From: Candidatus Aerophobetes bacterium Ae_b3b
GTDB taxonomy: Bacteria > Aerophobota > Aerophobia > Aerophobales > AE-B3A
Length of the DNA stretch: 38,226 nucleotides
Assembly: GCA_005223085.1 (NCBI GenBank)
Contig: NJBP01000016.1
Span: 1-38,226, forward strand
Reading direction: 5' to 3'
Numbering within the stretch: position 1 is the stretch's first letter; the number at the start of each line of letters is the position of its first letter. The notes under the pieces are model-generated. The model was not told the DNA's origin. It searched no databases and saw only the letters and a program-made list of their open reading frames with translations. Position numbers and translations under genes: made by a program. Positions 1,464-3,747 of this stretch are shown here, in pieces.

Positions 1464-1598
1464 GTATAACGGAACTCGGGTTTGCGAAGTTGCGAAGCAA
1501 TTTGCGAATTGCGTTCAGCAACGGCGCAAACTCGAAGTTAGGCGAAGTGGCGCTTCGCCACGAGTCTAACTTCGGGCGAAGCCCGAGTCCCGTTAAGC
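1464..1598 (-). repeat. cluster of attC-like recombination sites
   Basis: Four 7-bp boxes fit, or nearly fit, the integron core-site consensus RYYYAAC / GTTRRRY: GTATAAC (1464-1470, one mismatch), GTTAGGC (1537-1543), GTCTAAC (1564-1570) and GTTAAGC (1592-1598). Between them lie imperfect inverted repeats: aactcgggtttgcg (1473-1486) against cgcaaactcgaagtt (1525-1539), a GTGGCG-CTT-CGCCAC hairpin (1547-1561), and CGGGC-gaa-GCCCG (1573-1585). Paired end boxes around imperfect stems are what folded attC sites look like. Read on the minus strand, the recombinase remnant comes first, then these sites, then the HEPN gene. The 80-bp unit (1464-1543) is a normal attC length; the 35-bp unit (1564-1598) is short, so it may be a decayed or nested site. 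Confidence 0.5.
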
Positions 1599-1628
1599 AA
1601 AATGAAGCGAAGCGACATTTTGCTTAAC
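1592..1628. repeat. perfect 13-bp hairpin beside the recombinase remnant
   Basis: gttaagcaaaatg (1592-1604) and cattttgcttaac (1616-1628) are exact reverse complements around an 11-nt loop. Both ends carry attC-like core boxes (GTTAAGC and GCTTAAC), so the hairpin joins the attC-like cluster to the recombinase remnant. It could be a site where the array begins (attI side), a junction of two sites, or a terminator for the remnant. There is no long T-run, so a recombination role fits better than termination. Confidence 0.45.
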
Positions 1629-1914
1629 TATTTATATCCGAATTTCTTCGTTTATGCTCCCAAATTGGCATATTTTGCAAAGTGCTTCGTTTATGCACGA
1701 TTCTAGGTGAGACCTCAAATTGTAACTTTTTGTTGTCATTTTCTTCCAAAATCGAAAGGGCTTTTAATCCGTCCAATATCTCGCTAGCTGAGGTGAGTAT
1801 AAATTCTGTAGTTTTCGAACTCTTATGTCCAAGTAGTTGTTGAATGTATGGCAAATTTGTACCACCTTCTAAAAGATGGATAGCGAAACTATGGCGCAAG
1901 GTGTGAACTGTCAC
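1624..1914 (-). pseudogene. tyrosine recombinase (integrase), C-terminal remnant with frameshift
   Basis: The first 40 residues after the GTG at 1914 are the C-terminal catalytic core of a tyrosine recombinase: [15 protein letters not shown] gives the H-x-x-R box and [14 protein letters not shown] gives the second conserved H. The expected IYTH nucleophile segment is missing from this frame, which reads FILTSAS instead. In the next frame the DNA at 1784-1804 encodes IYTHLS and a stop, so one A/T base has been lost near 1801-1806. The N-terminal two thirds, including the first catalytic Arg, are absent: the fragment starts within the stop codon of pyrK (4-bp overlap). The residues following the shift are not expected to be real protein. 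It points toward the attC-like cluster. It could be IntI or a XerC/D-like integrase; the region that would decide is missing. Confidence 0.8.
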
Positions 1915-2886: not shown

Positions 2887-3747
2887 TTGTTGAAAGAGAA
2901 ATTACTAGAGAAAATAAGTGGGGTCGTATCTGAGCTATGTCTGGAAAGTAATTATGGAATAAGAAAGGATGTCTTTGAGGCGCTTCAACTGGCCGAGAAA
3001 AAAGAGGAGGAAAGACTCGCCAAATTAGTTTTAGGCAAGTTAATCGAGAACATAAAAATTGCCGAGGCCGAAAAAGTTCCTGTGTGTCAGGATACCGGGG
3101 TAGCGGAGGTCTTTGTAGAGGTGGGTAAAGGAGTAAGTATCCAAGGTGACTTATTGGAAGAAGCTATATCTCGGGGAGTAAGAGAGGGCTATGAGGGAGG
3201 TTACTTACGAAAATCTATGGTAGATGATCCCCTTTTCTTACGCCAAAACACCCAGGATAACACTCCAGCCCTGATTCACTTTCAATTTAACTCCTCTTTT
3301 AGGGATAGAATAAGAATAACTCTTTTTCCCAAAGGGTTTGGTTCAGAGAATGTGGGAAAAGTAGCTATGCTAACTCCTGACGAGGGCAGAAGAGGAGTAA
3401 AAAGGTTCATCCTGAAGGTAGTTAAACAGGCAGGGGCCAATCCCTGTCCACCTATCATTCTCGGGGTAGGGATAGGAGGAACAATGCAGACTTGCATCTT
3501 TCTAGCTAAGAAAGCGCTGCTTCGTCCCTTGGAAGCGAGGAACCCGACAGCAAGCTATGCCCTCTTGGAGGAGGAACTGTTAAGAGAGATCAATCAATTA
3601 AAAATAGGGGTGCAGGGTTTAGGAGGATTGACCACTTGTCTGGGGGTTAATATAGAACATTTCGCCACTCATATGGCAGGTCTTCCGGTAGGGGTGAATA
3701 TCAGTTGTTATGCTCTAAGAGAAGCTACCAGAGTTCTTAATGTATAG
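2887..3747 (+). CDS. fumarate hydratase class I, alpha subunit
   Basis: A 286-residue protein matching the alpha (N-terminal) half of class I [4Fe-4S] fumarases and L(+)-tartrate dehydratases. Key parts: VPVCQDTGVAEVFVE near residues 65-80 with the first cluster cysteine, NPCPPIILGVGIGGTMQTC near residue 190 with further cysteines, and a final NIEHFATHMAGLPVGVNISC. These three cysteine regions are where the cluster ligands lie. The start is a pair of TTG codons (2887, 2890) with no strong Shine-Dalgarno site. Two-subunit enzymes need a beta subunit, normally the next gene, but here the next gene is RNase HII. The partner must be elsewhere or lost. Fumarase and tartrate dehydratase cannot be separated from this subunit alone. 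Confidence 0.87.
   Translation: MLKEKLLEKISGVVSELCLESNYGIRKDVFEALQLAEKKEEERLAKLVLGKLIENIKIAEAEKVPVCQDTGVAEVFVEVGKGVSIQGDLLEEAISRGVREGYEGGYLRKSMVDDPLFLRQNTQDNTPALIHFQFNSSFRDRIRITLFPKGFGSENVGKVAMLTPDEGRRGVKRFILKVVKQAGANPCPPIILGVGIGGTMQTCIFLAKKALLRPLEARNPTASYALLEEELLREINQLKIGVQGLGGLTTCLGVNIEHFATHMAGLPVGVNISCYALREATRVLNV

Follow-up and report, generated by a model that had tools for sequence, protein, structure and literature searches.

Remnant of an integron-like cassette platform, probably served by a recombinase outside the IntI family, in a Candidatus Aerophobetes genome

In the Treponema-type integron (PMC3607928), the recombinase is transcribed toward attI, in the direction of the cassettes, the attI has a GTTRRRY core and the cassettes carry attC sites. 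CALIN elements and degraded integrons (PMC9024848) have cassette sites without an intact recombinase. In integron integrases, the I2 helix is regarded as the innovation that made folded single-stranded sites usable (PMC7790495). PMC8138268, on an integron-like subgroup among simple tyrosine recombinases, describes the insertion as essential to integron function and makes no mention, in the passages covered, of the attI and cassette arrays reported below. In the literature covered, to which subscription journals contribute little so that an earlier description is possible, we found no I2-less integron-like system, no Aerophobetes integrons and no Chryseobacterium cassettes. The locus described here shares the features listed above with both kinds of element. 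It differs from the Treponema-type integron in having intact relatives whose recombinases are without the IntI additional domain and mostly have a HARP-like N-terminus, in its attC geometry, and in its long complementary cassette ends; it differs from CALIN and degraded integrons in that its sites are missed by a class-1 attC model and its recombinase stub is of another lineage.

The window, by which we mean the whole stretch of 38,226 nucleotides that was analysed, is one contig (C71) of a Candidatus Aerophobetes genome with a completeness of 88.6%; the Aerophobetes data are fragmented metagenome-assembled genomes. Read along the minus strand, it carries a recombinase stub, an attI-like block, an ORF-less cassette and the genes of the next cassette (Table 1). 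An earlier note on this DNA had described a recombinase remnant directed at an array of attC-like sites, and both parts of that description held, with the direction, which is that of the Treponema-type integron (PMC3607928), seen in homologous loci as well. The stub starts at the end of a pyrK-like gene, and its final 21 residues lie in another frame, with the former stop codon at 1736-1738; as it lacks most of the protein and is frameshifted, it is a pseudogene. Since no intact member of the recombinase family was found in the window's own genome, we regard this copy as a relic. With only a stub left, the array would be frozen unless another enzyme acted in trans, and it is presumably inactive. 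In a genome of the same genus (G001), where almost nothing of the recombinase is left, an attI-like block follows the same pyrK gene, so that the platform there is probably an ancestral one in decay.

The first gene of the next cassette starts 25 bp beyond the last core box, and the contig ends 58 bp past the second gene, placing the cassette end and a second ORF cassette beyond the contig. Profile searches against Pfam and NCBIfam gave no clear family for either gene; the HEPN label previously attached to the 325-aa gene found no support there, its one trace being a weak PADLOC match to Cas13a (16.6 bits, residues 216-308). An Rfam search of the window returned only a chance microRNA-precursor match.

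Table 1. Features of the array end of the window (all rows but the last) and canonical attC sites on a contig from another genome of the order (last row)
Feature	Coordinates	Strand	Basis or remark
Tyrosine recombinase C-terminal stub	1736..1914	-	PF00589 E 9.7e-10; three-frame translation; identity to intact G343/G276 recombinases
attI-like block	1622..1735	-	internal repeats; ~12 other copies; pattern search
37-nt hairpin H1, cassette start and end	1592..1628	-	fold z -6.6; rule common to ORF cassettes
135-nt attC-like site	1464..1598	-	fold -43.9 kcal/mol, z -7.4; outer arms complementary elsewhere
Complete ORF-less cassette unit	1470..1628	-	repeated in G002 and G006
First gene of next cassette, 325 aa	462..1439	-	no clear family; weak HEPN-like hint
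Second gene of next cassette, 145 aa	59..496	-	no clear family
Core-type box GTATAAC	1464-1470
Core-type box GTTAGGC	1537-1543
Core-type box GTCTAAC	1564-1570
Core-type box GTTAAGC	1592-1598
Core-type box GCTTAAC	1622-1628
Canonical attC sites, L106 (G014:C126)	486-551, 1660-1719, 2421-2491, 3013-3085	+

Core-site boxes are present where the earlier note had placed them, although they number five and not the four that it counted, and the imperfect stems that it saw between them fold far beyond chance. The segment 1464-1598, for which folding of the minus strand had been suggested, reaches -43.9 and -42.1 kcal/mol on the two strands (z -7.4 and -7.1), and none of 200 shuffles was as good; the segment 1464-1544 has a fold z of about -5. 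A scan of the window for core boxes with a stem, which replaced an earlier scan with anchored arms that had failed on most class-1 attC sites, gave 1464-1598 as its sole match, and none was found in the shuffled window. This attC-like site is bounded by R'' GCTTAAC (1598-1592) and R' GTTATAC (1470-1464), has an outer stem of about 17 bp, and encloses the nested hairpins H2 (1564-1598) and H3 with H4 (1464-1543). The window thus shows the integron arrangement of R'' and R' boxes (RYYYAAC and GTTRRRY) around an imperfect folded stem. The outer arms are still complementary in G202 and Chryseobacterium despite different sequence.

The attI-like block is about 115 bp long, contains two repeated elements (1680-1696 and 1641-1657) and has its core GTTAAGC at 1628-1622, where cassettes join at G^TT. 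As in integrons, this is an attI adjoining a recombinase, with insertion at G^TTRRRY. In the other copies of the block, which come from relatives and from other phyla, homology stops at GTTRNRY and different cassettes follow; some stand behind recombinase remnants and some elsewhere, including behind unrelated genes with no recombinase. A pattern derived from the block matched 14 times in 8 of 386 genomes and not once in a reversed control, while its 20 matches in viral contigs are at the chance level estimated for that collection and were set aside. The genome to which the window belongs has a further attI-like relic (L011, G000:C52, 1272-1354, minus strand), which lies after the end of an XRE-like gene, and at L047, L049 and L115, too, the block is preceded by the end of a gene for an XRE-type regulator and not by a recombinase; three of these four loci share a near-identical junction. 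Short palindromes (CCCCGTTAGATG... and CCCGATGTTATCGGG) lie inside the block at L117 (G001:C119) and L050 (G017:C1). At L177 (G053:C36, ~1500), the interval between a gene for outer-membrane assembly and an ompH/lpxD operon holds a 112-aa gene together with an attI-like block that ends in GTTAGAC, perhaps as a secondary-site insertion.

Related genomes had been proposed as the place to look for the same array with a complete integrase. Loci with recombinase, attI and cassettes were indeed found, but their intact recombinases lack the IntI additional domain. On the complete chromosome of G276, an intact recombinase related to the stub is followed by the attI-like block and then by cassettes. 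G017:C82 has a truncated recombinase with block and cassettes, G343:C27 a recombinase and block on a contig that stops exactly at the attI GTT, and G341 a more divergent recombinase followed by a longer array. Plasmids of Chryseobacterium sp. SNU WT5 (recombinase WP_143853951.1) and Pontibacter kalidii supply the named intact cases. On the SNU WT5 plasmid an ORF-less unit comes immediately after attI and recurs between ORF cassettes; like the unit of the window, it consists of a hairpin followed by an attC, here of 148 nt with an outer stem of 14 bp. The Chryseobacterium unit occurs in six places. The intact relatives have arrays of cassettes in the same orientation, each with attC at its end, as expected of an integron, and the few array genes examined include defence-like TIR/SEFIR, Mrr and GmrSD genes. 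Between two Chryseobacterium plasmids, identity is 96% across recombinase and attI as far as AAACAAGTT and 10% over the 60 nt that follow. Such a switch at GTT is the hallmark of an exchange of cassettes at G^TT and, together with the attI copies and the intact loci, makes an integron-like function well supported.

Cassettes of this system have a further property, in that the first ~18 nt can pair with the last ~18 nt ahead of the attC stem. Among 11 cassettes (two of the end pairs having been spotted by eye first and the others by scan), positions 12-18, which lay outside the search criteria, pair in about 78% of cases, and position 11 is mismatched in 10 of the 11, nearly always as A opposite C. 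On the opposite strand the same position would be a G-T pair, an asymmetry that hints at one strand. A small set of IntI-type cassettes, by comparison, shows 40% matches at positions 8-18. The orientation rules for attC come from a small set. In total, 39 attC-like sites had a cassette start that fits them, vs 5.6 in shuffles, and there were 13 chain links, in which the end of a site is the start of the next cassette, vs 0 in shuffles. In the window, the start GTTAAGCAAAATG and end CATTTTGCTTAAC of hairpin H1 are mutually complementary, so that H1, given the end complementarity of ORF cassettes, is explained as both termini of a cassette that has no gene. Readings of H1 as a terminator or a separate attC were replaced because this complementarity explains it.

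Copies of the window's ORF-less unit (~160-163 bp) with 88-94% identity occur in a further two genera of the family; the nearest named records in which this repeat was found comprise two bins of Candidatus Aerophobetes and one with a Clostridia label, grouped as the same family, and a comparison of the window unit with plasmids gave no match. In G002:C17, two copies lie 1.5 kb apart with an ORF cassette between them, each directly behind the GTT end of what appears to be another attC. Partial copies break at core boxes, leaving the inner hairpin alone in G005:C107 and the first half alone in G006:C12, and a partial copy in G014:C50 has arms as in the window unit with a different tip. A homologous remnant at L043 (G006:C15, 8452-12258) has a nucleotidyltransferase/HepT pair upstream and SEFIR/TIR and Mrr-nuclease genes downstream. 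The relatives thus carry their hairpins between cassettes and not scattered without cassettes or integrase, the picture that the earlier note had named, next to a lack of covariance-model hits, as refuting an integron. Because the 163-bp unit has no ORF, is strongly conserved and is present in multiple copies, and because some attI-like blocks follow unrelated genes, one may ask whether it is a repeat of another type, a MITE-like palindrome or REP-like element with GTT/AAC ends by chance, beside a dead recombinase. We consider this very improbable, as the breakpoints coincide with core boxes, the units lie between cassettes that obey the complementarity rule in head-to-tail chains, and the same plan is found directly behind attI on a plasmid from another phylum.

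When aligned with class-1 IntI1, the intact relatives prove to be without the insertion (I2) that defines IntI, a result that pertains to these relatives, the stub being too short for the I2 status of its own ancestor to be read. The spacing between KGxK and HxLRH is 64-65 residues in ten intact relatives vs 105-106 in every measurable IntI. A tree of 53 recombinases places the 28 IntI sequences in one clade (100/99) and the intact relatives outside it; the new recombinases are not one clade and the bootstrap is not fully settled, so that one or several origins are both possible. Most of them have an N-terminal stretch resembling the HARP domain, with Pfam scores below the cut-off. The best NCBIfam match of the G017:C82 relative is NF040815 (recomb_XerA_Arch, site-specific tyrosine recombinase/integron integrase), whose product name is also that of the annotated Chryseobacterium recombinase, but the match lies below the model cut-off and the name fails to separate Xer from integron function. 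Weak matches to the IntI profile TIGR02249 were left out of the evidence because this profile matches every Xer.

Recombinases associated with IS91-type transposases are near neighbours of the new ones, and at L150 (G223:C66), L217 (G022), L223 (G101) and L225 (G262) a related tyrosine recombinase directly precedes such a transposase. A stub derived from an IS91-type transposon with a tyrosine recombinase, its ends represented by the hairpins, is nevertheless extremely unlikely: no transposase of this type adjoins the stub in the window or the arrays of G276, Pontibacter and SNU WT5, no IS91 ends surround the intact copies, and four of the five IS91-linked recombinases cluster together, apart from the well-supported new groups.

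The stub might also come from a classical IntI, leaving an ordinary integron remnant whose attC sites score low through divergence. The R-box consensus and attI logic do match those of integrons, intI pseudogenes are common (PMC2426708), and another genome of the same order (L106, G014:C126) has a classical IntI fragment, an N-terminus at 28-240 on the minus strand, diverging from four canonical attC sites, on a contig short enough that mis-binning is possible. Identification of the recombinase as IntI was, however, dropped after the alignment with IntI1; the stub is 86% identical over 35 aa to the intact I2-less recombinases of G343 and G276 vs 55% to IntI1, and these I2-less recombinases adjoin the same kind of attI. 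The attC covariance check suggested earlier was made with our own model, built from nine class-1 sites and not that of IntegronFinder. It gave only 11.0 and 8.7 bits in the window, compared with up to 41 bits in classical arrays of other Aerophobetes contigs, and no match at E<=1 in the new system's intact arrays. An ordinary integron is on these grounds unlikely. Of the integron-like relic first proposed, the cassette platform with homologous loci stands, and a strict integron does not, given the lack of I2 in the nearest intact recombinases and the low attC scores.

We are therefore fairly confident that the window holds the decayed head of an integron-like cassette platform with a non-IntI recombinase. 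The observed anatomy and junctions indicate a system that works like an integron, and its recombinase places it outside the integron family as defined; we judge it to be a new variant of integron, here a relic. In the intact state, a tyrosine recombinase gene would be directed at an adjacent docking site (attI) ending G^TT, and circular cassettes with an attC-like hairpin would open at G^TTRRRY and insert at attI successively, the first ~18 nt of each being able to pair with the ~18 nt just ahead of its attC stem. The enzyme would be of non-IntI type, without the additional (I2) domain and in most members with a HARP-like N-terminal domain. Its adjacency to the sites suggests that a recombinase of this kind catalyses the cassette reaction, for which one folded strand may be the substrate.

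Beyond this locus, we lean toward a second, widespread kind of integron, in which an I2-less recombinase, often with a HARP-like N-terminus, captures hairpin-ended cassettes and relies on their long complementary ends, in several phyla (Aerophobetes, Bacteroidota and others), and which current integron finders miss. I2-less cassette platforms would then be a surviving intermediate or an independent solution, a question made testable by the intact copies on sequenced plasmids of isolates. If true, surveys that require the IntI additional domain and class-1-like attC sites overlook a class of cassette arrays.
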